The notes under the pieces: generated by a model
Databases searched by the model: none
What the model was told of the DNA's origin: nothing
The model's input: the letters and a program-made list of their open reading frames with translations, nothing else
Source: a virus
Reading direction: 5' to 3' (one strand)
Length of the DNA: 45,056 bases
IMG/VR virus record: IMGVR_UViG_3300046804_004013
Span: 1 to 45,056 of that record
Shown: one piece after another, positions 7,409-30,456 of the stretch
Position numbering within the stretch: position 1 is the first letter of the stretch
Layout of the letters: each line of letters opens with the position of its first letter
Position numbers and translations under genes: made by a program

Positions 7409-8083
7409 TCAACCTTCGATGATTGATTCTAGCCAATCATCGGACATATATGTAATCATTTCTTCAGCTAATTCTACATCATCTGCATATCCTTCATCTA
7501 AAAGATATTCAATGACTGTTAAATAGTTATCATATGATTCATATAAATCATACATATCTTCCCAAGTATTCTCAGAGAGGTCATATCCTTCATTAATTAG
7601 TTCATTTACCCAAAGTTCAAATTCTGCATTTATGTTTCTTCTATTATCGGGAGCATATACATCGTATTTTAATTTAGGATTTGCTTGTTTATTATATACT
7701 CCAAGTTTAGAGACTAATCTTCTTCTCCATTTATTCCCAGAACCCCCTGGAGCTTTTGCGTGATATTTACTATACCCAGCTTCTAAATATCGATTATATC
7801 TATCAGCAGAAGGTTTTGCGGCATCTTTAGAATAAATGCTACCCCCATACTGCCGTTGCATTTCTTCAGCTTTTTTCCTTGTTTTATCAAGAATCAAAGC
7901 TTTAGGTGTGCGACTTCCTGAATTTATATCATATTTTTTTCTGAGTTGCTCTCCTCTACTCATTGGTTTGGGCTCAGCTTCTTTTTTTCTTCCAAATAAA
8001 CTCTTTAATCTTGAACGAAGGCCCTCATCCAATAATTCTTCATTATAAGCTTCATATAAATCTACTGAATTAATAACACGCAT
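7409..8083 (-). CDS. late protein with shared N- and C-terminal modules (224 aa)
   Basis: The N-terminus is MRVINSVDLYEAYNEELLDE. The middle is basic and Arg/Lys/Gly-rich (SRLKSLFGRKKEAEPKP, GGSGNKWRRRL). The C-terminus is acidic: VIEYLLDEGYADDVELAEEM then TYMSDDWLESIIEG. Both ends are shared with the proteins at 13069-14004 and 22065-22988, while the middles differ. LYE at residues 9-11 fits the [LI]xE cleavage rule of T4-type prohead proteases. It is preceded by an exact late promoter (8116-8123) and followed by a terminator, so it is a monocistronic late gene. I infer a virion or internal head protein; no catalytic motif is visible. Confidence 0.65.
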   Translation of the reverse strand: MRVINSVDLYEAYNEELLDEGLRSRLKSLFGRKKEAEPKPMSRGEQLRKKYDINSGSRTPKALILDKTRKKAEEMQRQYGGSIYSKDAAKPSADRYNRYLEAGYSKYHAKAPGGSGNKWRRRLVSKLGVYNKQANPKLKYDVYAPDNRRNINAEFELWVNELINEGYDLSENTWEDMYDLYESYDNYLTVIEYLLDEGYADDVELAEEMITYMSDDWLESIIEG

Positions 8084-8751: not shown

Positions 8752-8976
8752 TTATTTAGTGAGATGTCCGAACTTTTCGTAAGACTTCACCGCCAGGTGT
8801 ACTTCTTCTGTTGAGTAGAAATTCAAATACACACGATTACGGACGGTTTGATGAGGAAAATATGCTAACGATTTTAATGTATTAGCACATTTTGTAGTAG
8901 ATGCCAAAATACAGTTTCGTGTAATAGGGTCCTCAACAAAAAAACCGATCTTACTAATATTCCAATCGTATTTCAT
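8752..8976 (-). CDS. array protein, KFGHL-tail family (74 aa)
   Basis: The last member of a set of small paralogues between 8.75 and 13.0 kb. It begins MKYDWNISKIGFFVEDP and ends STEEVHLAVKSYEKFGHLTK. The tail matches the others: an acidic pair, five or six hydrophobic/variable residues, Y/A, K, an aromatic residue, H and L. The preceding VRNRVYLNFYS resembles the strand before the last helix of a leucine-rich-variant (LRV) repeat. Its ATG overlaps the stop of the PcfJ-like gene (ATGA). Function unknown. Confidence 0.65.
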   Translation of the reverse strand: MKYDWNISKIGFFVEDPITRNCILASTTKCANTLKSLAYFPHQTVRNRVYLNFYSTEEVHLAVKSYEKFGHLTK

Positions 8977-9836
8977 TTCTGAATCGCAGTCAACAGAAGA
9001 CGCTCCACAACTGCTTTCTTCTCAGAATCAAGGTCAGAAGAACGATTATTCAGACCAACTAGCTGCTTGAATTTAAACTCACCTTGTTTTAGAGAACTGT
9101 AGTCCAGTTCAGCAGTATAAGTCGGCTTATCGTTTTCCTCAATCAGAACAATGGCACTCCGCTTTTGTAGAATCGCATTCTCATAAGATGCCACACAGTT
9201 CCGAACCCGACGACCCCAGAGTTGAAGTTCTACTGTGTTCTTCGGCTGATAGACCTTCCAGTTATCCACTTTCACGGGGAAAGGAATGAACTCTGGATGA
9301 TGGTCTACATTCTGAGCAGTGCTCTCAATGTAAAGATGAGACATATGGTCGTGGAAATCTTGAAGACGCCACTTTGCAGGTTTAGTAATCTTTTCAGGAG
9401 TATTACCCCAACGAGTAATCACCTTACTCAGCTGACTAAAGGTGTCATTGTAAATCTCATTGGTACGCTGAAAACCTTCCTTCTCGTAGAAATGTTGTAC
9501 CATATGTAGATAGGTCTGGTGAGACATATTGTTTTTCATCCATTCATAGCAGTCATTGATGCTACTACTATACAGCTCAAACTTCATCAGAATATCCTGA
9601 TAGTTCTGAAAGTAATCATAGGTAATGTCAGACCAAACAGAAGTCAGAAAGTTGATGTTAGAAATGTAATTCGCAACCATATAGAAGCTCACTAGTTCGT
9701 CCAGTTCTTGTGATGCGAACCATTTGCGAAAGAATGGAGTCTGAAGAAACTCATTGGAAACATCCAGTTCAGCGAGTTTCGCAACAGTATTCAGATTGTC
9801 TTGAAAGTTATCGGAAAGAGTGATTTGGATTTTCAT
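8973..9836 (-). CDS. PcfJ-like domain protein
   Basis: A 287-aa protein. The C-terminal half has the PcfJ-like pattern: ELQLWGRRVRNCVASYENAI (about 205-224), then a strand IVLIEENDKPTYTAELD (229-245) and FKQLVGLNNRSSDLDSE (255-271). In PcfJ proteins the matching region is LHNCVGSY, a two-strand piece and Q-x-G-x-x-N. The N-terminal 170 residues are helical and not recognised. PcfJ-like proteins occur on plasmids and phages; their biochemical role is not established. It has a 54-nt upstream gap (9837-9890) and is coupled to the KFGHL-tail gene after it. Confidence 0.7.
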   Translation of the reverse strand: MKIQITLSDNFQDNLNTVAKLAELDVSNEFLQTPFFRKWFASQELDELVSFYMVANYISNINFLTSVWSDITYDYFQNYQDILMKFELYSSSINDCYEWMKNNMSHQTYLHMVQHFYEKEGFQRTNEIYNDTFSQLSKVITRWGNTPEKITKPAKWRLQDFHDHMSHLYIESTAQNVDHHPEFIPFPVKVDNWKVYQPKNTVELQLWGRRVRNCVASYENAILQKRSAIVLIEENDKPTYTAELDYSSLKQGEFKFKQLVGLNNRSSDLDSEKKAVVERLLLTAIQK

Positions 9837-9890
9837 AGCGGTTGTGTGTTCTTTCAGTAGTTTAACAGAGATTTGAGAGCAAGGAAAGGG

Positions 9891-10193
9891 TCAGTGTGCC
9901 AGTCTCAGAAGTGGTTTTGTCAAATATAAACGCTCTGCCTGATGATGAACAAGTATATCTTCTGGAGCATTTATATTCCTTAGTGTCATATATCTATAGT
10001 GACCATAACCTGGAGTATCAACATAATACATTTTTCGTAGTGTTTCTGCTGATGTGTACATATGTACTGCTACACTTCTCCTTATTTCAATACTTGATGA
10101 GTCTGAGAGTATATCAAGTAATTCTGAAGATTTAGTATTCAGTAATTGTATTTGCTCTTCCTCCGAAAGTGAGAGAATTTCTTCTTTGTTCAT
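9891..10193 (-). CDS. array protein with LRV-like repeat (100 aa)
   Basis: Start ATG 10191-10193 is chosen because it overlaps the preceding stop (ATGA). The product begins MNKEEILSLSEEEQIQLLN. The middle SSSIEIRRSVAVHMYTSAET and YRYMTLRNINAPEDILVHHQ resemble LRV/HEAT-like repeats (R-x-x-V-A-x-x-x-x-T-x-E). The end is diverged from the family tail (AERLYLTKPLLRLAH). Placed in the family by position, size and the repeat. Function unknown. Confidence 0.55.
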   Translation of the reverse strand: MNKEEILSLSEEEQIQLLNTKSSELLDILSDSSSIEIRRSVAVHMYTSAETLRKMYYVDTPGYGHYRYMTLRNINAPEDILVHHQAERLYLTKPLLRLAH

Positions 10194-10405
10194 TTCCATT
10201 TCGTCAATTTTCTAAACTTATTATAAGCATATACCGATAATACCACATCTTCTGTTGAATAGCGATTATACATCACATTAAAACGAATACCCCAATCATC
10301 CGATGTTGCAAGTTCTTTTAATGTATCAACTGATTTGGTTCTTTTTGCCAATTCATTTAATCTCATCAGTTCATTTGACCAATCCCAATATTCATCCATA
10401 CTCAT
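10190..10405 (-). CDS. array protein with LRV-like repeat (71 aa)
   Basis: Begins MSMDEYWDWSNELMRLNELA. Then TLKELATSDDWGIRFNVMYN and RYSTEDVVLSVYAYNKFRKL form one LRV-like unit and the family tail. The ATG overlaps the preceding stop (ATGA) and its own stop overlaps the next ATG. Function unknown. Confidence 0.6.
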   Translation of the reverse strand: MSMDEYWDWSNELMRLNELAKRTKSVDTLKELATSDDWGIRFNVMYNRYSTEDVVLSVYAYNKFRKLTKWK

Positions 10406-10593
10406 AATACCACCAAGTCATAATATTTCCTTGCTGCTTTTACAAGATGTACAACATCTTCTGGTGCCATTTTATATACACTCAAATAGATTTCCTGTCC
10501 TAATCCGTATATATTACCATTATCAACAAAGCAAGTTGTAAATCTTGAATGTTCCGTACAAACTTTCAGAAAAACATCCCGTTTTTTAATCAT
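10402..10593 (-). CDS. array protein, KYYDL-tail (63 aa)
   Basis: The reading frame is open further upstream, but the ATG at 10591-10593 (MIKKRDVFLKVCTEHSRF) is preferred because it overlaps the preceding stop (ATGATTAA), as at nearly every junction here. The tail is APEDVVHLVKAARKYYDLVVL. An alternative ATG (MNSSPS) lies 18 nt upstream. Function unknown. Confidence 0.55.
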   Translation of the reverse strand: MIKKRDVFLKVCTEHSRFTTCFVDNGNIYGLGQEIYLSVYKMAPEDVVHLVKAARKYYDLVVL

Positions 10594-10771
10594 TGAGGGT
10601 GACGAGTTCATAGTATTTGTTTGCTGCGTTTGCGATGATGTGATAATGCTCTGGTGAATTTGGAAATGCTTCCAACTGATGATGATAAGTATCTGGATAG
10701 AACCATCTATCAATATGAGGGCAATGTAAATCCCTAACTTTATTAAACACAATTGATTGTTTTGATTTCAT
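10586..10771 (-). CDS. array protein, KYYEL-tail (61 aa)
   Basis: ATG 10769-10771 overlaps the preceding stop (ATGA); a GTG 6 nt upstream is possible. Begins MKSKQSIVFNKVRDLHCPH. The tail is SPEHYHIIANAANKYYELVT, close to the next member (KYYDLV), so these two look like a recent duplicate pair at the tail. Function unknown. Confidence 0.55.
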   Translation of the reverse strand: MKSKQSIVFNKVRDLHCPHIDRWFYPDTYHHQLEAFPNSPEHYHIIANAANKYYELVTLND

Positions 10772-10977
10772 TTCCACATATTCATTCTTTCTAAGTAATT
10801 CATTGCTTGATGAAGTAACCAGATTTCTTCTGATACTGAAATTTTCAAAAAATTAATAAAGTATTTTCCATCTTGCCTGCGGTGATATTGTTCATTTGTA
10901 AGTTGCGAAATCCAATAGTCATTTCGTTTTTTAATATGAGTGTAATGAATTAAATCGGAAAAACTATAAAAATTCAT
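10768..10977 (-). CDS. array protein, diverged tail (69 aa)
   Basis: ATG 10975-10977 overlaps the stop of the frame upstream (ATGA). Begins MNFYSFSDLIHYTHIKKRND. The end VSEEIWLLHQAMNYLERMNM keeps the E-E and helix pattern of the family but has lost the K-F-x-H-L core. Function unknown. Confidence 0.5.
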   Translation of the reverse strand: MNFYSFSDLIHYTHIKKRNDYWISQLTNEQYHRRQDGKYFINFLKISVSEEIWLLHQAMNYLERMNMWK

Positions 10978-11153
10978 AATACTAACAAATGTTCAAATTT
11001 ATCTACTGCCTTTAAAACAATTATTGCTTCTTCTGAAGGACTTTCTTTATGAGTGAAAATATTTCCACCCCAAATGCTCTTAAACGAAATATAATATTCT
11101 GGATAAGATTGAGCAAGTAATTTCTGAAGTTCACAAATTCGTTCTGGTCTCGT
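10974..11153 (-). pseudogene. array member without a normal start codon (59 codons)
   Basis: This frame encodes a typical member: ERICELQKLLAQSYPEYYIS, then an acidic pair and EEAIIVLKAVDKFEHLLVL. It has no ATG, GTG or TTG. The expected ATG position, overlapping the upstream stop in the TTATGA arrangement used by its neighbours, reads TTACGA (11150-11155). The frame then starts at ACG 11151-11153. A single T-to-C change would explain the loss. Its stop still overlaps the next ATG (ATGA). It may be translated weakly from ACG, or be dead. Confidence 0.65.
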
Positions 11154-11323
11154 AATTTCACTAGATGACCAAATTTATATGCTGCCCTTAAAAGCATCTT
11201 TGAAGAATCAGGTGCCTCCATTTTACATACTACTAATTGAGGTGAGTCAAAATTCAAAGGTACACAAAACATAAAATCATTTGGATGAGAGTTACGAAGT
11301 AAAATTCCAAGTTCTCGGTTCAT
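11021..11323 (-). CDS. array protein with read-through extension (100 aa)
   Basis: ATG 11321-11323 overlaps the preceding stop (TTATGA). The family part runs MNRELGILLRNSHPNDFMF to LLRAAYKFGHLVKL. In the relatives a stop follows this tail at once. Here TGA is CGA, so the frame runs on for 43 residues (RDQNEFVNFRNYLLN...) through the coding region of the next gene in another frame. The extension is therefore out-of-frame translation of a paralogue, not a new domain. Function unknown. Confidence 0.6.
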   Translation of the reverse strand: MNRELGILLRNSHPNDFMFCVPLNFDSPQLVVCKMEAPDSSKMLLRAAYKFGHLVKLRDQNEFVNFRNYLLNLIQNIIFRLRAFGVEIFSLIKKVLQKKQ

Positions 11324-11511
11324 AATTTCACCAAATGTTGATACTTTGAGATTGCATAAGAGAATAGAATCTCTTCTTCTGAATGTATGGTCAAATACCT
11401 GTAACCAGTACAACATCTAACTTTTCTTGTATCCCCATACTTTTCTTTAACATATTTTAGTATGTGTCTGAAACCTTCTTCATTTGCGACGACTGCATCG
11501 TAGTATTTCAT
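11320..11511 (-). CDS. array protein, KYQHL-tail (63 aa)
   Basis: Begins MKYYDAVVANEEGFRHILKY. The tail SEEEILFSYAISKYQHLVKL is one of the clearest family signatures. The stop overlaps the next ATG (TTATGA). It starts after the preceding stop with no gap to speak of. Function unknown. Confidence 0.6.
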   Translation of the reverse strand: MKYYDAVVANEEGFRHILKYVKEKYGDTRKVRCCTGYRYLTIHSEEEILFSYAISKYQHLVKL

Positions 11512-11512
11512 T

Positions 11513-11722
11513 TCACATTAAAATCAAATGTTGATACTTTGCTGCAGCATAAGAGTAAATATATTTTTCTTCTGCCATTAGACGCCCAAAATAACTTGCA
11601 TCATAAGGAGTAAAAGGAACAAACTTTACTGGATATTCTCTATCACCAAAATTCCTTATACAATCCATTAGTGTCGCATCCGAGAAGACAGAAAAACGGT
11701 AAGGAGTGCAATCTTCGTTCAT
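11513..11722 (-). CDS. array protein, KYQHL-tail (69 aa)
   Basis: Begins MNEDCTPYRFSVFSDATLMD; tail MAEEKYIYSYAAAKYQHLIL. The ATG overlaps the preceding stop (TTATGA). The N-terminal half is strand-rich and differs from its neighbours, as expected if only the tail is under constraint. Function unknown. Confidence 0.6.
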   Translation of the reverse strand: MNEDCTPYRFSVFSDATLMDCIRNFGDREYPVKFVPFTPYDASYFGRLMAEEKYIYSYAAAKYQHLILM

Positions 11723-11922
11723 AAGTCTATTAGATGTTGAAACTTTGCGACTGCTCTGGAGAACATAAACTCACTCTCGGGGTTACGAAAGGTACGATGA
11801 AGTGCTCCAAATTTAACATTCGTCCGACCATACATTCCTGTCACAAAATGATATTCCCATTCATTTTTTACGGTACAATAATATACGTCATCATAACGTA
11901 TGGGATGTAAGGTGTCTGGCAT
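11719..11922 (-). CDS. array protein, KFQHL-tail (67 aa)
   Basis: Begins MPDTLHPIRYDDVYYCTVKN; tail NPESEFMFSRAVAKFQHLID. The ATG overlaps the preceding stop (TAATG). Function unknown. Confidence 0.6.
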   Translation of the reverse strand: MPDTLHPIRYDDVYYCTVKNEWEYHFVTGMYGRTNVKFGALHRTFRNPESEFMFSRAVAKFQHLIDL

Positions 11923-12134
11923 TATTCTTCAAAAATTACAAAATGTTGGAATTTGGCGATTGCATATGAAAATAGGAATTCTTTTTCAGAAAAGAAAGTT
12001 ATATTGTAATATTGTGAGACAAATACTACTCTTTTACCATTATTCCATAAATTGAATTCATTTCTTGCTGTACTCTCATTTCCAGCTATTATGTACCTAG
12101 TTGGCGAATCACGCAATATTATTGGTTTACTCAT
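11922..12134 (-). CDS. array protein, KFQHF-tail (70 aa)
   Basis: ATG 12132-12134 (MSKPIILRDSPTRYIIAGN) is chosen over a TTG 6 nt upstream; it overlaps the preceding gene by 8 nt. Tail SEKEFLFSYAIAKFQHFVIF. The DNA around the tail (AAATTCCAACAT-TTTGTAATTTTTGAA) is nearly identical to that of the gene upstream, a sign of recent duplication or gene conversion. Function unknown. Confidence 0.6.
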   Translation of the reverse strand: MSKPIILRDSPTRYIIAGNESTARNEFNLWNNGKRVVFVSQYYNITFFSEKEFLFSYAIAKFQHFVIFEE

Positions 12135-12285
12135 TTTCAAAAATTACAAGATGTTGGAATTTGGCGATTGCTATTAAGAAGATAAATGCTTTTTCAGAAC
12201 ATAAGCCGTAGGTGTCAATAAATTTCACCTTTCCATTGTACACATTGAAAAGGTACTTTACATCGTATTCAGAAAGTTCAATCAT
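12127..12285 (-). CDS. array protein, KFQHL-tail (52 aa)
   Basis: ATG 12283-12285 overlaps the clpS stop (TAATG). It begins MIELSEYDVKYLFNVYNGK and ends EKAFIFLIAIAKFQHLVIF plus ENE. It is the shortest intact member and links the array to clpS translationally. Function unknown. Confidence 0.6.
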   Translation of the reverse strand: MIELSEYDVKYLFNVYNGKVKFIDTYGLCSEKAFIFLIAIAKFQHLVIFENE

Positions 12286-12575
12286 TCTTCTGGCTCAATG
12301 GAACAAGGAACACCTTTTGACTTCAGTTGGTCCTCATAAAATTCAGCCATCTCAATGTCGCATACTTTAATGAGACCAACTCCAGTTGTGTGAGCGGTCA
12401 TCATTACAGAGATTGCTTGTGTTTCTGAAAGTTGACAAACTTCCATCAAAGACATCACAACCAATTCAGCACTCACTCCATCATCATTATGAAGAAGTAC
12501 CCGATACTTTGGTGCATTTTTTGGTTTGGTTTGATTCTCTTGAACGGTATTCTTTTCAATAACTTGAGCGGACAT
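12282..12575 (-). CDS. clpS: ClpS-like protease adaptor
   Basis: A 97-aa ClpS homologue. The family core is clear: KYRVLLHNDDGVSAELVVMS at about residues 24-43 (Y-x-V-x-x-x-N-D-D), then AISVMMTAHTTGVGLIKVCD and a C-terminal YEDQLKSKGVPCSIEPEE. ClpS binds proteins with destabilising N-terminal residues and hands them to ClpAP/ClpCP. A phage copy could redirect the host Clp protease. The usual N-D-D motif is present; the acidic/hydrophobic pocket residues cannot be judged by eye. GGAG precedes the ATG, and a host-type promoter lies at 12594-12621. The stop is coupled to the small-gene array. Confidence 0.85.
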   Translation of the reverse strand: MSAQVIEKNTVQENQTKPKNAPKYRVLLHNDDGVSAELVVMSLMEVCQLSETQAISVMMTAHTTGVGLIKVCDIEMAEFYEDQLKSKGVPCSIEPEE

Positions 12576-12593
12576 AATGGTTCTCCAGTGGTG

Positions 12594-12621
12594 ATTGTAG
12601 TGTAGCAGAAAATGAATTCAA
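12594..12621 (-). promoter_or_regulatory. host-type promoter for clpS and the array
   Basis: TTGAAT (12616-12621), a 16-nt spacer, TACAAT (12594-12599), about 20 nt before the clpS ATG. It lies downstream of a gene that has its own terminator upstream, so it could drive the whole coupled array. Confidence 0.5.
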
Positions 12622-12638
12622 ACAGTATGACTCTCGTG

Positions 12639-12968
12639 TCACTTCGTCAAGTGTCCATATTTCCTATTCGCACGGTACAGAAGTCGGATTTCTTCATTGC
12701 AGTTTGGATTTTGCATTACTCCCATTCTGACTTGAGAATTATCATCAATTATCAAATGCTTTAGGACTTCTATTGGAGTTCTTTGGTTCAGAGCAACAAG
12801 CATCCGAATATACCATTCTTTATCATTTGCAAGATAAGCAAGAATTTCGGCAGGAATAGAACTCTCGCTACGAAAAATACTACATCTTGCATTAAAATCT
12901 GGATATTTTGCATAAGTCCAAAAGAACTCCATCATTTCTGGAGAATACGTCGGTTCTTTGAGGTTCAT
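12639..12968 (-). CDS. LRV/HEAT-like repeat protein with KYGHL tail (109 aa)
   Basis: The ATG at 12966-12968 (MNLKEPTYSPEMMEFFW) is preferred; the open frame continues upstream but through a terminator. Two LRV-like repeats are visible: IPAEILAYLANDKEWYIRML with VALNQRTPIEV, and LKHLIIDDNSQVRMGVMQNP with NCNEEIRLLYRANRKYGHLT. The last helix is the same signature that ends the small array proteins. This is the most complete form and suggests that the small ones are derived from the end of an LRV repeat. Function unknown; repeat folds of this sort usually bind protein partners. Confidence 0.65.
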   Translation of the reverse strand: MNLKEPTYSPEMMEFFWTYAKYPDFNARCSIFRSESSIPAEILAYLANDKEWYIRMLVALNQRTPIEVLKHLIIDDNSQVRMGVMQNPNCNEEIRLLYRANRKYGHLTK

Positions 12969-13068: not shown

Positions 13069-14004
13069 TTAACGCTCTATAATTATCGGAACACCTCCTG
13101 AACGTTTTCCTTTACCCGTACCACTGCGCATTATAGTTCCAGGAAGAGGTGCTATTGCACCAGTATCCTCACCCCCTCTAAGGTTTGAATCCGCCATATC
13201 TTTAGGGTCTTCCGTTGTTGCATTTATTCCAGATTGTCTCAATCTAGAAGCAAGTTGCATTGATCTTGCGTGAGCAGACTGAACTAATGGGGAACGATAA
13301 TCTGTGTAATTGGAAGGAAGCTTCAATTGCTCGTATACAATATCATCCAAAATGGAAGAAATCCAGGCATCACTCATACTTTCTTTAATAACTTTTGCAG
13401 AATTGACATTATCTGCATAACCATGATCTAATAAATGATTTATTATATAACTCTCCTCAAAATTAAATCCTATATCCTTCCAGTCTTTCTCATGCCCTTG
13501 CTGGGTTGCGTATTGTTGTAATAATCTTCTCTCTTCGGGAGTCATTCGTTTAATAGCACTTTCAATTCTACCTCTAGCAAAAGGATTTGTTCTATTTTGA
13601 TATGCCCTATTGTATAATTCTTCTTGTTCTGGAGATAATGAAGAAGTAGGTCTAGGGGTAACTGGTGTAGAAGGTTGAATAGCTCTGTTAGATTTTGTAG
13701 ATTCTTGTGGTCGAGATGGTTCTTGAGTAGCTGGTGATTGCTCTCTTGAAGTCATCCCAATTTTAGATTTTAAGTCTTCAACATTTTTTTGAGCTTCAAT
13801 TCCCGCCTTTAGTCGTTGACTTCCTAAAATATTTTTAGTTCTGTTACTCATCAATGCCTGAGCTTCTTTTGAAGGTCCTGCCAGGGTAGCTTGAGCCGCA
13901 GCTTTGCGTAGTCTATCCAATTCTTCAGAGCTACTCATACCTAAAGAATTAGATTGCTCATATATTGAATAGTATGCTTGGTGTAAATTAAATACTTTAT
14001 TCAT
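13069..14004 (-). CDS. late protein with shared N- and C-terminal modules (311 aa)
   Basis: N-terminus MNKVFNLHQAYYSIYEQSN, a long Ala/Arg/Pro/Ser/Gln-rich middle, and the module IINHLLDHGYADNVNSAKVI then KESMSDAWISSILDD at about residues 190-220, matching the proteins at 7409-8083 and 22065-22988. Here about 90 further residues follow (Gly/Arg-rich end GKGKRSGGVPIIIER). IYE at 14-16 fits a T4-type prohead protease site. Preceded by an exact late promoter (14027-14034) and followed by a terminator. I infer a virion or internal head protein. Confidence 0.65.
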   Translation of the reverse strand: MNKVFNLHQAYYSIYEQSNSLGMSSSEELDRLRKAAAQATLAGPSKEAQALMSNRTKNILGSQRLKAGIEAQKNVEDLKSKIGMTSREQSPATQEPSRPQESTKSNRAIQPSTPVTPRPTSSLSPEQEELYNRAYQNRTNPFARGRIESAIKRMTPEERRLLQQYATQQGHEKDWKDIGFNFEESYIINHLLDHGYADNVNSAKVIKESMSDAWISSILDDIVYEQLKLPSNYTDYRSPLVQSAHARSMQLASRLRQSGINATTEDPKDMADSNLRGGEDTGAIAPLPGTIMRSGTGKGKRSGGVPIIIER

Positions 14005-17899: not shown

Positions 17900-20800
17900 T
17901 CAACCAATTACTGGCGCCGTGAGGGCAACAGGAGTTGATTCTACACTCGCCAAATCTAAAGGAAAATTATGTGCGTTCCTTTCGTGCCAATTATGTTATC
18001 GTAAGAACTCTTTATTTCTTACTTCTCTATGTCGCCATAGAGTTCAGACTATCTCTTCATCCGTTCTGGATGCTGGGCATTCGTGGGTAGATTATTGTTG
18101 GAACTCACTACCTAGTCGTTAGACCTGCCGAAGAACCTATGTCCTCTTCGGATTGGTACGGGATTGTCTACTTGAGAGTTTCCCCGTTTAACCCAGTTTT
18201 TTGTATAAACATTCCTGCTTATAGGTGACTACACTTATGAAATCACCTCCATTCCCAGTCCAGCACGATTAAGAATGTCAGCCCAAGTGTTAATTACATG
18301 ACCTTGACTATCCTGAATAGATTGATTGAAATTGAAACCATTCAGGTTGAATGCCATAGTGCTAACGCCAAGAGCAGCGAACCAGATGCCCACAACGGGC
18401 CAAGCAGCAAGGAAGAAGTGCAGAGAACGAGAGTTGTTGAACGAAGCATATTGGAAGATCAGACGACCAAAATACCCGTGAGCAGCAACAATGTTATAAG
18501 TTTCTTCTTCTTGACCGAACTTATACCCATAGTTCTGAGACTCAGTTTCAGTAGTCTCACGGACAATTGAAGAGGTCACAAGTGAACCGTGCATCGCTGA
18601 AAACAGTGAACCACCGAAGACACCTGCGACGCCCATCATATGAAATGGATGTGAAAGAATATTATGCTCAGCCTGGAAGACAAGCATATAATTAAATGTA
18701 CCACTGATGCCTAGAGGCATACCATCAGAAAATGCAGTTACTCCTATGTTTCCATAGGGACTAGACTATATCTTAACAATCAAATATTTGATTGTTCTGG
18801 GCGTTCTTGCTGGTATTACGAGTTACGCCTAACTCACCCAGTAGTCGTTGAACCTTTTCCTCAAGCGTGAGGAACTTGGCTTCTGATTGGCATATTATGA
18901 ATTTATTCTGTTTATGAATCAAATACCAGTCAATAAACTCTTTTGGTAGAAAGTCCTTTGGTATTCTTTCTCCATTTATAACGATTCCCCATCTTGAAAG
19001 ATTTGCTAATAGATTTCCTTTCTTTCTACTTTCAGGGTTATAAACCCCAACACCCATTTTTTGACGAGTTGAAGTAGATTTCTTTCCACCTATTTTGCCA
19101 CCTTCTCCCTTTTTCTTGCGAACTTCGGGAGTATTTCCAAGAAGAGAGATTTGTCTTTGAGTTTGACTATTCCATCTACCTGTAGATTTTTCTTTCTGGA
19201 TTTTATGGGAGGCATATGCACCCTTTTTACCCAATTCAGACTGAAGTCCAGAATTATAAAATCCAGAGTTATTTTCTTTGCAGGTTTTTATTCTATTTTG
19301 ATTCATAAGTTTTCTTGCATCTTCATCTTGACCCTTTCTCCACATCCAGGCAATTTTATCTTGAATTTCTCCATAAGATAACCACCTATAGTAATGAAGT
19401 AGAGCGTGATGTTCTAAAGATGCAATTACATTCATCTCCGAACTATTAGAAGACCTACCAGTATGATGTGGAGGTTCGTGATGATATTCAACCATAGTAT
19501 CATTAGAATACTCTAATTGAGATACATATTTCCTGAATTGTTCGTAGATATTGTCCATAACTTAGCTTTCCAGAAGTTAACCCAGTTTTACAAGGGCCAT
19601 TATATCACAACCCTTGACCAAAAGGATATACAAGAAACACAGCAGTCGCAGCAGCTACAGGCGCTGAATAAGCCACAAAAATAAATGGCCTCATACCCAG
19701 CCTGTATGAAAGTTCCCACTCACGGCCCATATAAGCATAAATACCAATCAGAAAGTGGAATACGATTAGTTGATAAGGACCCCCATTATAGCAGTTGGGG
19801 AACCATATGTTTCCATATGGACTGGACTATATCTTCGCCTTATTTTTATAAGGTGTTGGGCGCTAATCTGGTATTACTCAACACGCTTGTTGAACCCAGT
19901 AGTCTCTGAACCTTCCACAGAAGTATCGTCTGTGGCTTGGCTGCTGATTGGCATATTCTCTAAAATCCAACTACAGGAAATACCACTTGTTAAAAGTCTA
20001 TTTCCATTGGCAACTTTATTTAAATGAGATGGGTTTGTTTGTATTCCATATTTCTCCAAAATAGTAGAACAAACAGTCTTAAGTGTTTTGTCTTCTTTTG
20101 GATTGAATACCACATCTCCAAGATGTTTTCCAATAGTTCTTTCGGTTAGTTTTTCATAGATATGAAATACTTTCTTATAGTTTCTATTGTTAAGTGTCTC
20201 TTGTGTTGCGTTTCTTGGATTTTTATAGGCAAAATTAATAAGTCTTTTACCTAGTTTTTGTCTTACACTTTTTGGTTGTTTAAGAGCAGCGGCACGAAGT
20301 TGTCCACTTTCTTTTGCAACCTTACCACCTTTTTTACCTGCAAGAGAAATAACTTGTTCTATTATTTCTTCTTTTTTAGAGTACCCTGCAAGTGCTCTCC
20401 AAGCAATTTTATCTTCTTCATTGCCCCAAAGACGCCAGTTACAGTAATGAAACATAGCGTGTTGGATTGGAGAAACTTCTACGAGATTTTGGGGTTCATC
20501 AGAACCGCCAAGATATTTTGGAGTAAGATGATGTTTGTGTTTCATAAGAGAACTTAGCTTTCCAGCAATTCACCCAATTTAAAGTGACCCAATATTATTT
20601 ATAAAGCCACTCATCAAGACTCGCTGCTTCCCAAATGGGAAAGAAATGCAACCCAATCGCATTTGAACTAGGGACAACAGCACCAGAAATGATGTTGTTT
20701 CCGTACATAAGAGAACCCGCAACTGGCTCTCTAATCCCGTCGCTTCATCTATCAAACAACCATATCTATGGACTTAGGTTGTTTCTTTTGACTTTATGCA

Positions 20801-21697
20801 AACTGATTTATTCCTGTGGGATTTCCACCACCACAGGTGCCATACTTTTCAAGTCTTGCTTCATAACCTATCTTAGCCATTTCACTTCTTCCACCGTTTT
20901 CTACCCACTCTTTCCAAGTTTGTAGATGAGAAATACATTCGGTTATTCTTTCTCCTCGTCTTACACCCATATAAGGAAGTATTTTTTGCAGAATGAATAA
21001 GACTTTTTCTTTTTCTCCGATATGAAGTGTATAAACTTGCTTACCTTTTACAGTTTTTCTTGATGGCGAAAAATAAGATTTATCTAAAAGTTTACTCAAC
21101 CTTTGGATAATATCCTCATCTACCATAGAAATTTTAATAAAAGGTGCTGGTGGTGTTTTAGAAATTTCGTAACGGTTTTTGGAACGATTATCTATTCCAA
21201 AGTATCCTTCACCTTCTAATATACCAGCAATCCAAGCAATATCGGTTTCGGTTAGGTTTAACATTTTGGTTCTCAAATACTGTATTATTTATACAACATT
21301 TGAGTTAAAAAGTCAAAAGTAGATGTTTGGACTATATCTTCACCCTTCATAGAAGGGGCTGGGCGCTCTAGCCTGTTATTAAGGGGACTAAACCCCTCAG
21401 GTAAGTCTCTGAACCTTTCCAAAGTGTACTTTGGACTTGGCTGCTGATTACCTTTCGGTTTCCAGCAATTCACCCAGTTTCGTCAATACTCTTACGAGTA
21501 AGGGACACCGATTAGTTAATGTCTACGGGAGGAGCTGCAATAAAAGCAACAATAAAGCAAATAGTAGCGGCAATAAGTGTCGGAATCATAAGAGTTCCGA
21601 ACCATCCGACGTATAGCCGATTATTAGTGGAAGTAACCCACTCGCAGAAGTCTTGCCAAACGTTATTAGATTGGCGTGAAGCAATTGTAGCAGTCAT
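17900..21697 (-). CDS. psbA: photosystem II D1 protein, five exons
   Basis: Exons (minus strand): 21697-21519, 20742-20605, 19791-19610, 18734-18242, 17987-17900; total 1080 nt, 359 aa plus stop, the normal D1 length. The product begins [20 protein letters not shown]. Joined codons are I60, L106, S167 and M331. The sequence then reads [10 protein letters not shown] with D170 and [14 protein letters not shown] with H332, E333, H337, D342 and A344, so the manganese-cluster ligands keep canonical numbers. D1 is the fast-turnover core of photosystem II; the phage copy keeps photosynthesis running during infection. Preceded by a late promoter (21854-21861) and a structured leader. Without splicing only 60 codons can be read before stops. 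Confidence 0.95.
17988..18241 (-). ncRNA. psbA group I intron 4 (254 nt, no ORF)
   Basis: The 5' exon ends GAGGTGAT, the intron begins TTCATAAGTG and ends AACATAATTG; the exon resumes GCACGAAAGG (U before, G at the end, as in group I introns). Core elements seen: AAACGGGGAAACTCTCAAG (P3/P4 region) with CAATCCCGT, and AAGAGATAGTCT (18057-18046) as P7. It interrupts codon 331, just before the Mn ligands H332/E333. It has no endonuclease ORF. The CTGGGTTAAA near its start is shared with the other introns. Confidence 0.9.
18735..19609 (-). ncRNA. psbA group I intron 3 (875 nt)
   Basis: The 5' exon ends CAAGGGT, intron TGTGATATAATGG...GGAGTAACTG, exon resumes CATTTTCTGATGG. It interrupts codon 167, three residues before D170. 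P7 element AAGATATAGTCT at 18774-18763; 5' domain CTGGGTTAACTTCTGGAAAG (19585-19566). Encodes an HNH-type protein. The segment CTGGAAAGCTAAGTT is shared with intron 2. Confidence 0.9.
18773..19558 (-). CDS. intron 3 HNH-type homing endonuclease (261 aa)
   Basis: Begins [19 protein letters not shown]. The nuclease signature is [20 protein letters not shown] at about residues 22-41, then [19 protein letters not shown] (46-64) and [10 protein letters not shown]. The double His, the spaced H/H and the DKIAW block are shared with the intron 2 protein, so they are relatives. The middle carries Gly/Lys repeats ([27 protein letters not shown]) like DNA-binding NUMOD-type modules, and a C-terminal helical part. 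It would cut intronless psbA near codon 167. Confidence 0.75.
   Translation of the reverse strand: MDNIYEQFRKYVSQLEYSNDTMVEYHHEPPHHTGRSSNSSEMNVIASLEHHALLHYYRWLSYGEIQDKIAWMWRKGQDEDARKLMNQNRIKTCKENNSGFYNSGLQSELGKKGAYASHKIQKEKSTGRWNSQTQRQISLLGNTPEVRKKKGEGGKIGGKKSTSTRQKMGVGVYNPESRKKGNLLANLSRWGIVINGERIPKDFLPKEFIDWYLIHKQNKFIICQSEAKFLTLEEKVQRLLGELGVTRNTSKNAQNNQIFDC
19874..20545 (-). CDS. intron 2 HNH-type homing endonuclease (223 aa)
   Basis: Begins [20 protein letters not shown], then [34 protein letters not shown]: the first His pair, P-K-Y-L-G-G-S, N-L-V and H-A-x-x-H give a His/Asn nuclease motif. [20 protein letters not shown] and a helical C-terminal part ([20 protein letters not shown]) look like DNA-binding modules. 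Related to the intron 3 protein. The C-terminal end runs into the conserved intron core. Confidence 0.8.
   Translation of the reverse strand: MKHKHHLTPKYLGGSDEPQNLVEVSPIQHAMFHYCNWRLWGNEEDKIAWRALAGYSKKEEIIEQVISLAGKKGGKVAKESGQLRAAALKQPKSVRQKLGKRLINFAYKNPRNATQETLNNRNYKKVFHIYEKLTERTIGKHLGDVVFNPKEDKTLKTVCSTILEKYGIQTNPSHLNKVANGNRLLTSGISCSWILENMPISSQATDDTSVEGSETTGFNKRVE
20596..20603 (-). promoter_or_regulatory. T4-type late promoter in intron 2
   Basis: Exact TATAAATA starting 2 nt inside intron 2 and 51 nt before the endonuclease ATG. It would make an RNA that starts within the intron and cannot splice, giving endonuclease only. Confidence 0.6.
20794..21264 (-). CDS. intron 1 LAGLIDADG homing endonuclease (156 aa)
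   Basis: ATG 21262-21264 ([20 protein letters not shown]); a TTG lies 12 nt upstream. [15 protein letters not shown] is a LAGLIDADG helix with the catalytic acidic residue at its end (E-G-E-G). The rest shows the strand pattern [40 protein letters not shown] and the C-terminal [16 protein letters not shown]. One motif in 156 aa means it acts as a homodimer if active. It has its own late promoter at 21286-21293. Confidence 0.85.
   Translation of the reverse strand: MLNLTETDIAWIAGILEGEGYFGIDNRSKNRYEISKTPPAPFIKISMVDEDIIQRLSKLLDKSYFSPSRKTVKGKQVYTLHIGEKEKVLFILQKILPYMGVRRGERITECISHLQTWKEWVENGGRSEMAKIGYEARLEKYGTCGGGNPTGINQFA
21286..21293 (-). promoter_or_regulatory. T4-type late promoter in intron 1
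   Basis: Exact TATAAATA inside intron 1, 22 nt upstream of the LAGLIDADG gene start, the same spacing as free-standing late genes here. Confidence 0.7.
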
Positions 21698-21848
21698 AAG
21701 AATTAAAAAGAAAATAAGATGAATCCAGGGAAGATTCTTTACTTTATTTTCCTTCTCTACCCTCAAGAGAAGGCAGGATGAGAGACGTGTTTACCCTCCC
21801 ATAGGTCTCGGTTATCGGGAGCACAAGTGTCAGAGTCCCCTGACCCGT
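21698..21848 (-). ncRNA. structured psbA leader RNA, PhotoRC-II-like
   Basis: About 150 nt between the late promoter and the psbA ATG, more GC-rich than its surroundings. Visible stems: GTCAG/CTGAC around 21845-21829; CTCCC (21821-21817) with GGGAG (21800-21796), extended by GTG/CAC; an alternative GAGAC (21809-21805) with GTCTC (21786-21782); and a perfect 8-bp hairpin CCTTCTCT/AGAGAAGG (21773-21751). The two middle pairings exclude each other. PhotoRC RNAs are known conserved leaders of psbA in cyanobacteria and cyanophages, so this assignment is from position and overall form, not a model match. Confidence 0.6.
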
Positions 21849-22064: not shown

Positions 22065-22988
22065 TCAATTCAGATAAGATTCAATTAACTCCTCAAATTC
22101 GTAATCTTCCAGAGATTCAAGAATATATAATGCTTCATTATAATCTTCTACATATCCTTCATATATAAAATCTTCAAGAATTTGTTCAATAATTGAATTA
22201 TACAATTCGAGTTCTTCTTTTGGTAATTTTATGTAAGTCTGACTATATTTTACATTTTCTTCTTGAATAGGATTTTTATTTCTTCTAGCCTCCTTTCTTG
22301 CTATCCTATTTTCCTGACGCCTTAGAATTCTATTAATATCACGAAGCTCTTTTCTTCTTTGAGCATCTCTTGAGGCTTGGCCAGTAAACTCTTTTTTCGC
22401 ACTAGTAACTCCAACTCTAACTGACCTAATGACTTTACCTAAAAATCCTTTAAGCTTTTCTTTAGCAGATTGAAGCTTTCTACCGACTTCAGCAGCCCCG
22501 CCAGCTACTGCAGAGACTGCTCCACCAGCCATAGTCTTTGCTCTTTGAGCAATTTTTCCAGGATATTCAGCAGCTGTTTGTGCAGCTTGAGCTATACGAC
22601 CAATTCTAACTCTTTGTTGTCTTTCAGCAGTTTTCTCAGCTCTTCTAGCCCTATCAAAACCACCACCACTACCAGCACCTGCAGTGATTCTTGCAGTTGA
22701 TATTTGTGCTCTTTTTTCTCTAGCTCTAGGGCCACCTCTGGTAATTTGAAATCCACTAGAAGTTTTAGCTTCTGAAAGGTAACCCCCTAATGAATTCAAA
22801 CACTCATCAAGAGTGATTTCTGTCTCATAAAAAATATCCTCCATAATCTGAGTGAGTTCATTATCACTTAAATCATCAACGAAAGATAAATCTTCATCTA
22901 TTGAGGCGCACTCAATTTCATTTCTAAGTTCTTCATCATATACAGCAAAATAGGATTCGACTAAATCTTTAATTACTCTAGAACTCAT
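22065..22988 (-). CDS. basic late protein with shared N- and C-terminal modules (307 aa)
   Basis: N-terminus MSSRVIKDLVESYFAVYDEE; acidic first 70 residues; a long Ala/Arg/Lys-rich middle (RARRAEKTAERQQRVRIGRI, NRILRRQENRIARKEARRNK) that looks like a DNA-binding or condensing segment; C-terminus FIYEGYVEDYNEALYILESL, EDYEFEELIESYLN. The ends match the proteins at 7409-8083 and 13069-14004. LVE at 9-11 fits a prohead protease site. AATAAATA about 30 nt upstream is a possible late promoter. I infer an internal head protein. Confidence 0.6.
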   Translation of the reverse strand: MSSRVIKDLVESYFAVYDEELRNEIECASIDEDLSFVDDLSDNELTQIMEDIFYETEITLDECLNSLGGYLSEAKTSSGFQITRGGPRAREKRAQISTARITAGAGSGGGFDRARRAEKTAERQQRVRIGRIAQAAQTAAEYPGKIAQRAKTMAGGAVSAVAGGAAEVGRKLQSAKEKLKGFLGKVIRSVRVGVTSAKKEFTGQASRDAQRRKELRDINRILRRQENRIARKEARRNKNPIQEENVKYSQTYIKLPKEELELYNSIIEQILEDFIYEGYVEDYNEALYILESLEDYEFEELIESYLN

Positions 22989-23063: not shown

Positions 23064-24452
23064 TCAGACGGCAACAGTTGAGAGTGCTCCAGAATTATCA
23101 ACAACTAAACGATACTGAGTTCCATTGGGTGATGTAAGAATTACACCCTGAGAAGTATTAAAACCAACCTTTACATCTCCACCAACATCAAGTTTATATT
23201 GGGGATTAGTAGTTCCAATACCAACATTAAAGTTCTCGTTACCAACTAACCAATATTTTGCTGGATTTGCATCAGTTCTTACACCAATAGCTAATTGAGT
23301 ATCTTTTGTTGTGTCTGGGGAGTCAAATAAAGAAATTGAAGACATTTCTCCAGTACCAATTATAATTTTTCTGGAGGCTGTGGACGAATAACCTGAATAA
23401 GAACCTAAGAAAATATTATAATCGCCTGTAGAATTATTGTAGCCAGACCATTCACCTAAGAAATTGTTATGAGAACCACTGGTGTTAAAATTTCCAGAAC
23501 AATATCCAAAGAAATTATTATATCATCCAGTGGTATTACAGTAGCCGGCACCATTACCGAAGAAATTATTATAGTATCCAGTGTCATTATAATATCCAGT
23601 ATTATGCCCTAGAAAGTTATTGTAGGAACCACTATCATTATAGTAACCAGCCCTATGTCCAAAAAAGTTATTATAAGTTCCTGTTGTATTGCAATATCCA
23701 GTAGATTCCCCTATAAAATTGTTTCGCCTACCAGTTGTATTACAGGAGCCGGCACCATCACCGATAAAATTATTACTATATCCATCAGTAATACTAAAAC
23801 CAGCATTATTACCTAAAAAGAAATTATTGTTTGCTGTTGTAATATCAGGATGAGAAGTTAGATTTGTAGAAGTAATATTAGAAGTGCAACAGTAACTAAA
23901 GGCACCTCCGCCACCAGCAACATTTGTAAGATTACTACCATCTCCATAAAAATAAGCAGCAGTTACAATTCCACTATAGTTTGCATCTCCGGTTGGATTC
24001 GCAACTGTTGAACCTTGAACCTCAATAGTTCCCGTAGTGGCATTTAAAGTAATTGCAGTTCCAATTGAAACACTGTTATTTGTTGGGTCTAATGTAATTG
24101 TATTTGTACCAATAGACAGAATTCCAGTGATTCTGGCATTTCCATTCACAAAAAGTGCAGTAGTTCCAGCTCCAACTACGTGAAGTTTATATTGGGGATT
24201 AGTAGTTCCAATGCCAATATTAGAACTTGTAGAAATACCAGATGCTCCAGATACCCAATAAGATTCACCACTTCCTCCGCCACCGCCACCAGCAATAGTT
24301 AAACCACCTGGAGTAGAACCATCAGAAAGTTTTAATGTTGGTACGTTTGGGTCATAAAAGAGTTCACCAGCATCTCCAACAAACTCAGAAGGATTAGAAG
24401 CTCCAAGTTTATCTACATAAACTCTATAGGTGGTGTTAGTGGATAATGACAT
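23064..24452 (-). pseudogene. tail-fibre-like protein interrupted by an in-frame TGA
   Basis: One frame of 463 codons with a TGA at 23523-23525. Part 1 (309 aa) begins MSLSTNTTYRVYVDKLGASN, has VPTLKLSDGSTPGG, the module NIGIGTTNPQYKLHVVGAG and about five repeats such as YNNFFGHRAGYYNDSG. Part 2 continues the repeat without a break (YNNFFGYCSGNFNTSGSHNN, GEWSGYNNSTGDYNIFLG) and ends with GIGTTNPQYKLDVGGDVKVG and LVVDNSGALSTVAV. In other repeats the TGA position holds Ser, Tyr or Thr. Either a broken gene, read-through, or a sequencing error. An AATAAATA late-type promoter precedes it by 28 nt. An internal start (MSSISLF, 23343-23345) could make the C-terminal part alone. Confidence 0.8.
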
Positions 24453-24479
24453 CTTTTAATTGCACTACAGTATCTCATC

Positions 24480-24487
24480 TATTTATT
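24480..24487 (-). promoter_or_regulatory. late-type promoter (AATAAATA)
   Basis: One mismatch from TATAAATA, 28 nt upstream of the fibre gene. On the plus strand CCTAAATA (24499-24506) could serve the divergent sulfotransferase gene, 29 nt before its ATG. Confidence 0.4.
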
Positions 24488-24534
24488 TTTTTAACTTTCC
24501 TAAATATGCTTATAATGAATTTTATCAATTTTAT

Positions 24535-25365
24535 ATGAAAAAAACATTCTATTTTATTTCTGGTCTTCCTCGTTCTGGGTCAACTGTACTTAGAAGTCTA
24601 CTGAATCAAAATCCAAGATTCTATGCTGGACCTGCATCACCAGTTCTCAGCACGATGTACACAATTGAACATCATCTACAACAAGATGAGTTATTTCACG
24701 CTCATCCAAAGCCAGAACAGGCAAATATGATTATTTCAAATGTTGCTTATCAATTTTATAGTGACATTGAAAAACCTGTTTGCTTTGATTCCAACCGTGC
24801 TTGGCCTGCAAGAGTTCCTTATATTGAAGGATACCTTGGACAAAAAGCAAAGATTCTCTGCACCGTAAGAGATTATGAAGAGATTCTCACTTCATTTGAA
24901 ACACTTCTTCGCAGAAATCCATATCAACTAGGTCAAACGAGAGTTGATTTTATTACAGAACAACTGGTTAAATTAAATATTCCACTCACTACCGAAAACC
25001 GTTGTGAATATATTGCAGGTCCTCAAGGTATTCTAGGTCAATCTGCAAATGCAATTATGGAAGGTATTCAACAAGGTTTCTTAGATAGAATTCATTTTGT
25101 TGAATATAAAAATCTGGTCAATTCACCTCAAGAAACTCTAAATTCAATTTATGAGTTTTTAGGTGAAGATTCTTTTGAACATACATTTGATAATCTAGAG
25201 AATCAAACACGAGAGCAAGACTTAAATACTTATGGTCTTTCTGATATGCATAATGTTCGTCCAGTGTTAAAATCTACATCAGAAAATCCATCAGAAATTC
25301 TACCAGAATCTATTCTTGAAAAATGCAAGAATACTGACTTCTGGAGAAGACTAAATATTCAATAA
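24535..25365 (+). CDS. sulfotransferase-family protein (276 aa)
   Basis: ATG 24535-24537 (MKKTFYFISGLPRSGSTVLR); the frame is open upstream but that part is AT-rich and unlike the family. SGLPRSGST at residues 9-17 is the 5'-phosphosulfate loop that binds PAPS. AKILCTVRDYEEILTSFETL is the 3'-phosphate-binding region (V-R-D), and LVNSPQETLNSIYEFLGED matches the C-terminal P-x-x-x-L-x-x-I-x-x-F-L-G pattern. It would move sulfate from PAPS to an unknown acceptor, perhaps a surface glycan or the virion. First gene of the plus-strand cassette. Confidence 0.82.
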   Translation: MKKTFYFISGLPRSGSTVLRSLLNQNPRFYAGPASPVLSTMYTIEHHLQQDELFHAHPKPEQANMIISNVAYQFYSDIEKPVCFDSNRAWPARVPYIEGYLGQKAKILCTVRDYEEILTSFETLLRRNPYQLGQTRVDFITEQLVKLNIPLTTENRCEYIAGPQGILGQSANAIMEGIQQGFLDRIHFVEYKNLVNSPQETLNSIYEFLGEDSFEHTFDNLENQTREQDLNTYGLSDMHNVRPVLKSTSENPSEILPESILEKCKNTDFWRRLNIQ

Positions 25366-28794: not shown

Positions 28795-30456
28795 TCAAGT
28801 ATAAATCCCAGTATTTCTATTTATCCAAGAAATATCTCTAGCAATTCCAGTGCTCGTAACCAATCCAGAACCAGAAAACAATGTTCTACGAATAGACCAA
28901 AATGGCTCAGTTGTCGCAATTCCAACTGCAGCCTTTCCTGCATAAAAAGTCAGACCATCCGCACTTACATCTGTTAAAACTAAACCATTAGTTGCAATGA
29001 CACCTGTTAAATTACTACCGTCCCCATAATAAGTTACAATTCCCGAAACTGCAGTAATAATACCCGAAGAAATTTGAATATGCCCTAGTGTAGAATTACC
29101 AGAAACCACTATATCTCCAATGACATCAAGTTTAGATGTTGGATTAGTGGTTCCGATACCCACATTAGAACTTGTGGAAATTCCAGAAGCTACAGTTTCC
29201 CATTGAGATGAGCCTCCACCGGCGGAGAATGCAACTCCATTTTGGTATAGAGTTCCAGAGAAGTTTACATCTCCACCGACATGAAGTTTATATTGTGGAT
29301 TTGTCGTTCCAATACCGACATTAAAGTTCTCGTTACCCACAATCCAATCAGTAGAGCCAGCTCCTATTGCAAGTTGATTAGACCCATCAATGATAGGAGT
29401 TTGCCTAGAGTTCCCTATAACTACATTATTTGAGCCAATAGTATTAGAGCATCCAGCTTGATCTCCAAAAAACGTATTATAATTTCCACTAACATTACAA
29501 GCACCTGAGCTACATCCAAAGAAATTATTACCTATTCCAGATGTATTCCCATAGCCAGAGTTTGTTCCAAAGAAATTATTAAAATCGCCATCAATATTAG
29601 AACTTCCAGAGGAATTGCCAATAAAAATGTTATCAACTCCTTCTGTATTATAACGACCGGCATAAGTTCCAAAAAAGATATTATTATATCCTATGGTATT
29701 ATAATAGCCAGAACCTCTTCCTAGGAAGATATTTTCATTACCTAAAGTATTGCAATATCCTGACCATTTTCCTAAAAATATATTCTCACTACCACTTGAA
29801 GTTGAACTTCCAGCCCCAATACCAGCAAAGAAATTATCGGTTCCACTAGTTATAGATTTCCCGGTTTCAGAATCCCCAAGTTTTATGTTGTATCCTGCAC
29901 CAAATCCAATATTACCTTGAACGTGTAAGGTTGTTGTTGGATTTGTTGTTCCAATACCAAGATTTCCACTACTTGGAATAAAAACAAATTGTTCAGTAGA
30001 AATTGCTACAGAGGAAACTCCAGTTGCAGTTACAAAAGTTGGATATACTGGATTATTTGTTATTGTTTGTGTAACTACATTAAATGAATTTACACCAGTA
30101 AGTTTACTTCCATCTCCATAATAAGTCACAACACCAGAAGTTGCAGTAACAATACCAGAAGAAATTTTTACAATTCCTAAAGTTGAAATTCCAGAAACAT
30201 AAAGTTGTGTAATTGAACCTATGCCACCAACTACAGATGTTGATACTCCAGATGCAGTAGCATATGTAGTAATACCAGATACATTTGAAACGGGAACAAA
30301 AGTTTGAGTTGCAGCATCATAAGAAACCAAATCTCCATTTGCAACTCCAATCATATTTACATCGATCAATTGACCGAATTTACGTGGAGCTACTGACCCT
30401 AAAAGAGTAGTTCTATTATTTTGATTTGATTGTAGCCTAACTGTATACTCACTCAT
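28795..30456 (-). CDS. modular tail-fibre-like protein (553 aa)
   Basis: Begins MSEYTVRLQSNQNNRTTLLG, SVAPRKFGQLIDVNMIGV, which is the likely virion-attachment end. Then a module seen in other fibre genes here (VTYYGDGSKLTGV, SAVAIS-type strand, NLGIGTTNPTTTLHVQGN), about nine NNFFG repeats (ENIFLGRGSGYYNTIGYNN), the QLAIGAGSTDWIVGN strand, more GIGTTNP modules, and an end SIRRTLFSGSGLVTSTGIA with WINRNTGIYT. Its ATG overlaps the 115-aa gene (ATGA). The modular make-up suggests exchange with the genes at 23-24 and 37.6-41 kb. Confidence 0.75.
   Translation of the reverse strand: MSEYTVRLQSNQNNRTTLLGSVAPRKFGQLIDVNMIGVANGDLVSYDAATQTFVPVSNVSGITTYATASGVSTSVVGGIGSITQLYVSGISTLGIVKISSGIVTATSGVVTYYGDGSKLTGVNSFNVVTQTITNNPVYPTFVTATGVSSVAISTEQFVFIPSSGNLGIGTTNPTTTLHVQGNIGFGAGYNIKLGDSETGKSITSGTDNFFAGIGAGSSTSSGSENIFLGKWSGYCNTLGNENIFLGRGSGYYNTIGYNNIFFGTYAGRYNTEGVDNIFIGNSSGSSNIDGDFNNFFGTNSGYGNTSGIGNNFFGCSSGACNVSGNYNTFFGDQAGCSNTIGSNNVVIGNSRQTPIIDGSNQLAIGAGSTDWIVGNENFNVGIGTTNPQYKLHVGGDVNFSGTLYQNGVAFSAGGGSSQWETVASGISTSSNVGIGTTNPTSKLDVIGDIVVSGNSTLGHIQISSGIITAVSGIVTYYGDGSNLTGVIATNGLVLTDVSADGLTFYAGKAAVGIATTEPFWSIRRTLFSGSGLVTSTGIARDISWINRNTGIYT

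Follow-up and report, generated by a model that had tools for sequence, protein, structure and literature searches.

Fourteen small genes that share a constant C-terminal tail and differ in the part preceding it lie in one run on the minus strand of IMGVR_UViG_3300046804_004013, a metagenomic virus contig of 45 kb (45,056 nucleotides, hereafter the window), and the run encloses a gene for ClpS. The tail-bearing open reading frames (ORFs), designated m01 to m14 with m01 as the first gene of the run, extend from 12968 to 8752; two genes within the run, clpS (12282-12575) and a PcfJ-like gene (8973-9836), lack the tail. By its gene content, which includes baseplate, tail-fibre and plastoquinol oxidase (phrog_4235) genes and, judged by sequence, psbA, transaldolase and ThyX, the window virus is classed as a T4-like cyanophage. 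We tentatively suggest that some T4-like cyanophages may encode Clp substrate receptors, with swappable heads of several folds, one docking helix and a ClpS of their own.

A constant tail on variable heads

A sequence-only reading of this DNA had picked out the fourteen genes, at the same coordinates, by a shared C-terminal signature and had described a constant tail on strongly differing heads; both descriptions held. We built leave-one-out hidden Markov models (HMMs) from the last 42 residues of the members and ranked each left-out member among 339 sequences, which included 138 other window ORFs and 200 shuffles. The left-out member ranked first for 13 of the 14 genes and had E < 0.01 for 12, all but m09 and m13. 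A head/tail split test, with 300 shuffles for each protein, was then run on 13 short members, ten from the window and three from G001, one of four further phage genomes (G001 to G004) that we obtained by a ClpS search. Tails scored above all 300 shuffles in 12 of the 13, m09 being the failing one, whereas no head (0/13) beat all of its shuffles; the best head was equalled by 1 of 300, and the heads of m06 and of one G001 member came nearest to signal. Mean nucleotide identity was 0.50 in the tail versus 0.29 across the 16 codons preceding it, and the tail DNA of m02 and m03 is 87% identical over 70 nucleotides, with a sharp edge where the dissimilar heads begin. On the strength of these four results we regard the constant tail and variable head as real. 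Weak tests for recent gene conversion between tails gave 9 of 10 codon choices alike for m05/m06 (P 0.011), 9 of 11 for m02/m03 (P 0.07) and nothing for other pairs.

The genes of the run are as follows; E values are those of the leave-one-out tail HMMs unless a family is named.

12639-12968, minus strand: m01, first gene of the run, LRV-type, 109 aa; tail EEIRLLYRANRKYGHLTK; E 1.7e-4
12282-12575, minus strand: clpS, not a tail member; PF02617 E 1e-16
12127-12285, minus strand: m02, short; tail SEKAFIFLIAIAKFQHLVIFENE; ATGA overlap with clpS; E 4e-7
11922-12134, minus strand: m03, short; tail SEKEFLFSYAIAKFQHFVIFEE; E 9e-9
11719-11922, minus strand: m04, short; tail PESEFMFSRAVAKFQHLIDL; E 1.4e-10
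11513-11722, minus strand: m05, short; tail AEEKYIYSYAAAKYQHLILM; E 2e-4
11320-11511, minus strand: m06, short; tail SEEEILFSYAISKYQHLVKL; predicted beta-alpha-beta-alpha; E 3e-9
about 11153-11323, minus strand: m07, short; tail PDSSKMLLRAAYKFGHLVKL; next codon CGA, frame open to 11021; E 4e-4
10974-11153, minus strand: m08, short, in another frame, would start at ACG; tail SEEAIIVLKAVDKFEHLLVL, from three-frame translation; E 7e-6
10768-10977, minus strand: m09, short; divergent tail SEEIWLLHQAMNYLERMNMWK; E 0.07, the weakest assignment among the short genes
10586-10771, minus strand: m10, short; tail PEHYHIIANAANKYYELVTLND; E 0.0055
10402-10593, minus strand: m11, short; tail PEDVVHLVKAARKYYDLVVL; E 1.8e-4
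10190-10399, minus strand: m12, LRV-type; tail TEDVVLSVYAYNKFRKLTKWK; E 1e-7; G001 counterpart L007:8231-8503
9891-10193, minus strand: m13, LRV-like, with an altered end (APEDILVHHQAERLYLTKPLLRLAH); tail alone not significant
8973-9836, minus strand: PcfJ-like gene, not a tail member; PF14284 E 4e-8, 33.7 bits, cut-off 25
8752-8976, minus strand: m14, LRV-type; tail STEEVHLAVKSYEKFGHLTK; ATGA overlap with the PcfJ-like gene; E 2.5e-6

Although the tail of m13 is not significant by itself, the protein is 42% identical to the product of G001 L007:8500-8808, with gene order kept. The polar tail positions K and H are kept in both the short and the LRV-type groups. Most short members finish in HL-x-x-[hydrophobic], with a constant spacing to the C-terminus, whereas the LRV members end in HLTK, which is not hydrophobic.

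Gene starts in the array are inferred, and for counting overlaps that of m12 was taken as 10405. On this basis the 15 junctions comprise eight four-nucleotide ATGA overlaps, one TAATG, two eight-nucleotide overlaps, one one-nucleotide gap, one ACGA and two real gaps, of 63 and 54 nucleotides. The ACGA lies between m07 and m08 (11150-11155), at the place where eight other junctions have ATGA, and through this single base a stop and a start are both lost. The frame of m07 therefore extends to 11021, and m08, which has no ATG, was missing from the list of start-to-stop ORFs. Contig L001 (20 kb, 16.8 kb of it identical to the window) has the same base at this junction. In six-frame translation m08 matched A9, a model of the short members of which m08 is itself a row, at E 5.6e-12. 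A terminator-like hairpin at 13028-13003 stands ahead of the run on the minus strand.

Two predicted folds carrying the tail

Structures were predicted with AlphaFold for m01 and for m06, the sole modelled one among m02 to m11. The m01 model is a seven-helix solenoid (predicted local distance difference test score, pLDDT, 93.5) in which the tail forms the terminal helix; 1lrv and alphaRep were among its best Foldseek matches, every one with a weak E-value. A profile built from m01 and its relatives (A10), including those in other phages, matched 1LRV at E 2.6e-19, and in tblastn searches m01 reached E 2e-22 against an LRV protein of G001 and down to ~1e-12 for LRV proteins of G002 and G004. 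Against PF01816, m01 scored 13.1 bits, below the cut-off of 21.6, so its placement rests on homology and fold and not on Pfam; the other window members gave no match to this family, and the G001 counterpart of m01 scored 125 bits. By profile and model m01 is an LRV alpha-solenoid; m12 to m14 are its relatives.

The m06 model is of another kind. Predicted from an alignment of only 12 sequences (pLDDT 87.7; predicted template modelling score, pTM, 0.71), it shows a strand-helix-strand-helix order with the tail as its last helix, and is not an LRV alpha-solenoid. Foldseek and VIA-align found no convincing structural relative of m06 in the PDB or among viral models, a result that does not show a novel fold. 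We had considered that all short members were eroded LRV proteins, and dropped this idea because the m06 model has strands. The tail is thus predicted to be carried on at least two folds, an LRV alpha-solenoid and a small beta-alpha-beta-alpha fold. The sequence-only reading had described LRV/HEAT-like repeats ending in the signature, which applies to m01 and m12 to m14 and not to most members, m06 among them. As evidence against itself it had also named a lack of homology between the tails or predicted folds that are unrelated there; the models do not clearly go that way, as the tail is the C-terminal helix in both while the folds preceding it differ.

To compare tails across the folds we used A9, which was built from short members alone and run over 14 records. 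Beyond the short members it matched the end of a G001 LRV protein (E 1.5e-5) and m14 (E 3.7e-5); it found no match in G002 to G004 or nine named phages, and nothing unrelated, in these records. With hhalign, A9 against the LRV alignment gave 93.5%, and five short members compared with the G004 LRV alignment showed no similarity. Smaller HMM tests agreed weakly with the A9 result. From these comparisons the tail is probably homologous across both folds.

ClpS and relatives in other phages

The ClpS of the window matched PF02617 at 60.9 bits (cut-off 23), and aligned with solved ClpS it has the HNDD and MMTAH segments. The NDD and M-x-x-A-H segments of ClpS are those of the N-degron pocket. Pfam and the alignment identify 12282-12575 as a ClpS adaptor, with putative binding to ClpA or ClpC. 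In a tree with 80 cyanobacterial ClpS the five phage ClpS formed one group (support 92/86, with the bootstrap unsettled); the closest cyanobacterial ClpS by identity are from Cyanobium and Synechococcus, and named phage records with a ClpS match are about 32-34% identical. The ATGA coupling of clpS to the next member is present in both the window and G001. The PcfJ-like protein is 40% identical to the product of a gene inside the G004 array and matches the C-terminal part of longer proteins of phages B23 and S-EIV1 (L016, L017), in which the tiny ORFs adjoining the PcfJ-like genes lack the tail.

The comparison contigs are, like the window, metagenomic and partly incomplete. G001 (140 kb) has the same arrangement as the window: three LRV-type members and one short member, then ClpS, then two short members, so that copy number varies from 6 in G001 to 14 in the window. 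In G004 (89 kb) about 20 consecutive LRV genes occupy 10.8 kb, with ClpS and the PcfJ-like gene inside and NPNATEDIIMLAKATDFI as the typical end. G002 (125 kb, contig 3300044591_002420, L028-L034) has 104 LRV matches in many separate genes over ~18-100 kb; of these genes 18 end in variants of NPNTPHYIKKYLKIQEHL, with some lying to either side of ClpS. In G003 (29 kb) the LRV genes have variants of ATREIIQTVRAYEFYKE as their ends. Each phage has a uniform tail of its own; those of the window, G001, G003 and G004 can be aligned by eye, and that of G002 is more distant. Baseplate or portal proteins group G001, G002 and G004 with the T4-like cyanophages P-SSM2, B23 and S-SRM01, in which we found no ClpS, LRV or short-tail match.

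All five ClpS-bearing contigs (the window and G001 to G004) have LRV genes nearby. As a comparison set we took 46 contigs (2.3 Mb), a related transaldolase (TalC) being the sole criterion of choice, and ClpS, LRV and the short tail were found in none of them. With the window omitted, simple counting puts the chance of 4/4 versus 0/46 at about 4e-6, uncorrected for relatedness and contig fragmentation. Tail and LRV HMMs gave no match at 80 cyanobacterial ClpS loci and 80 TalC loci, bacterial genomes scanned for the tail yielded no relative, and tblastn of two members against named phages returned chance or generic LRV matches only. Aligned together, the 14 members have no conserved stretch that would serve for a back-translated search. 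The tail was likewise absent from the named phages and library families searched. The sequence-only reading had missed both the ClpS inside the array and its association in four other cyanophages, which supply a specific candidate partner for the tail.

Several other features of the window were noted. A motif of the form YLLDEGYADDVELAEEMITYMSDDWLESI is common to the proteins at 7409-8083, 13069-14004 and 22065-22988 (divergent in the third), which flank the array or lie near it, and the 13069-14004 version was found by tblastn in G001 and G002. The psbA gene at 18235-21766 appears interrupted by inserts with HNH-like and LAGLIDADG-like endonuclease genes; that of S-SRM01 is likewise interrupted, by a homing endonuclease. 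Two tail-fibre-like proteins (23523-24452 and 28795-30456) have runs of NNFxGxxAGYCNTTG-type repeats in common, and a protein at 24460-25365 on the plus strand looks sulfotransferase-like by eye (FISGLPRSGSTVLRSLL).

Possible function of the tail and its place among known systems

We propose that the members form a modular family in which varied heads (LRV solenoids of differing length, beta-alpha-beta-alpha or other) sit on one C-terminal helix. This helix would dock every member on a single partner while each head would hold a different target. The likeliest partner would be ClpS itself or the ClpC chaperone that ClpS serves, because the genes surround ClpS and couple translationally to it and because tail-bearing LRV genes occur in five of five ClpS phages. 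Host proteins bound by the heads would then be handed to the host Clp protease. What leads us to an adaptor role is the probable co-translation with ClpS, the solenoid heads, which are typical binders, the helix that outlives head turnover and the repeated association with ClpS. In its general form, a diversified set of adaptors with a common dock, this proposal is plausible although somewhat short of probable; the stricter claim, that members are receptors feeding host proteins to Clp, is one we hold with more reserve. Like the sequence-only reading, which had supposed that the tail binds one fixed partner and that the heads bind different targets for host takeover, we infer the docking, and with it the identity of the partner, the host nature of the targets and their degradation.

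A number of observations weigh against this proposal. In the leave-one-out test m09 is borderline (E 0.07) and m13 fails (E 0.98), both fitting the signature poorly, and a smaller HMM test of tail likeness across the folds gave a modest 11 bits versus 7.7-9.5 for the best shuffles. The co-occurrence comes from five contigs that are not independent, since three have ClpS that are 77-78% identical, and most LRV genes of G002 are far from ClpS. LRV genes occur without ClpS in virus contigs L008 and L009 and in Moorella phage MTATph1, so the presence of LRV proteins does not in itself imply ClpS. Descent alone would produce the difference in tails between phages, and so would co-adaptation. Further, in LRV proteins the tail is also what naturally closes the solenoid, and in G004 and G002 it is similar to the internal repeats, which leads to the main rival: that the array consists of tandemly duplicated genes for small binders or inhibitors, in which the last helix is conserved merely to close the fold. 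The position of the tail, as terminal helix of the m01 solenoid and last helix of the m06 fold, is what such a cap would predict, and tails are only somewhat more uniform than internal repeats (0.57 versus 0.43 in G004, 0.79 versus 0.70 in G002). However, one would not expect an alpha-solenoid and a beta-alpha-beta-alpha protein to have the same cap, mere packing of head against cap should keep the heads similar when they are not detectably alike, and the polar K and H are kept in both groups. We regard a purely structural cap as a serious but doubtful explanation.

Expanded, fast-changing arrays of small genes are common in phage host-takeover regions, and the difference in copy number between G001 and the window would suit a counter-defence or decoy set whose heads neutralise host defence or regulatory proteins, with ClpS as an independent host-derived gene. 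We consider this unlikely, as none of the PADLOC, Pfam and PHROG families suits the members (nine proteins compared with PADLOC-DB, seven of the window and two relatives, gave no match), and ClpS goes together with tail-bearing LRV genes, five phages having both and 46 relatives neither. The shared helices might instead pair, so that mixed assemblies combine heads; an amphipathic helix common to 14 co-encoded proteins fits a shared multimerisation element, but such a handle leaves the company of ClpS unexplained and seems to us improbable. That the common C-terminus is a degron making the members short-lived Clp substrates is very unlikely: the HL-x-x-[hydrophobic] end of most short members would suit it, but the LRV members lack that hydrophobic end, and ClpS recognises N-termini, not C-termini (PMC7966870).

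Returning to the proposed adaptor set, its parts have known counterparts. Both the repeat family of the LRV heads and the adaptor family of ClpS are known: m01, m12 to m14 and the LRV proteins of G001 to G004 are of the same kind as PF01816 proteins such as Azotobacter 1LRV, which the short members m02 to m11 do not resemble. In a literature search that covered few subscription journals, we found neither LRV/HEAT proteins described in cyanophages nor phage arrays of LRV genes described whose products have a uniform last helix. In cyanobacteria ClpS1, ClpS2 and the small NblA are ClpC adaptors (PMC7966870), and NblA is also carried by freshwater cyanophages (PMC4103541, PMC7966870). Like NblA, the members would be small proteins tied to ClpC in cyanobacteria and their phages; unlike it they are many instead of one, the predicted fold of m06 has strands, and none has a Pfam match to NblA. 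The ClpS of jumbo phages has been proposed to bring targets to host ClpAP (PMC7824862); there, as in our proposal, a phage protein of this family would direct the Clp proteolysis of the host. The passage on it mentions no associated tail-bearing array. Poxviral ankyrin/F-box (PRANC) proteins, which are tied to host protein degradation (PMC9414399), are likewise a viral multigene family with a variable repeat head and a constant C-terminal part. They are unrelated in sequence, no member has a Pfam match to ankyrin repeats or the F-box, and they act through ubiquitin where the array would act through Clp, with heads of more than one fold and a docking that we propose, so PRANC serves as an analogy only. 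The arrangement as a whole, many genes with the same tail on differing folds grouped about a phage ClpS, could not be matched to anything known in the described phage systems and libraries searched; the function given to it here is a proposal.

Even if the tail is a cap only, expansions of LRV genes as large as that of G002 (104 matches on a 125-kb contig) beside ClpS are unreported in the literature searched. If the tail docks on ClpS or ClpC, these phages would have a modular means of selecting host proteins for removal by the Clp protease, and the heads would provide a set of probes, already at hand, with which to find the host proteins important in infection.

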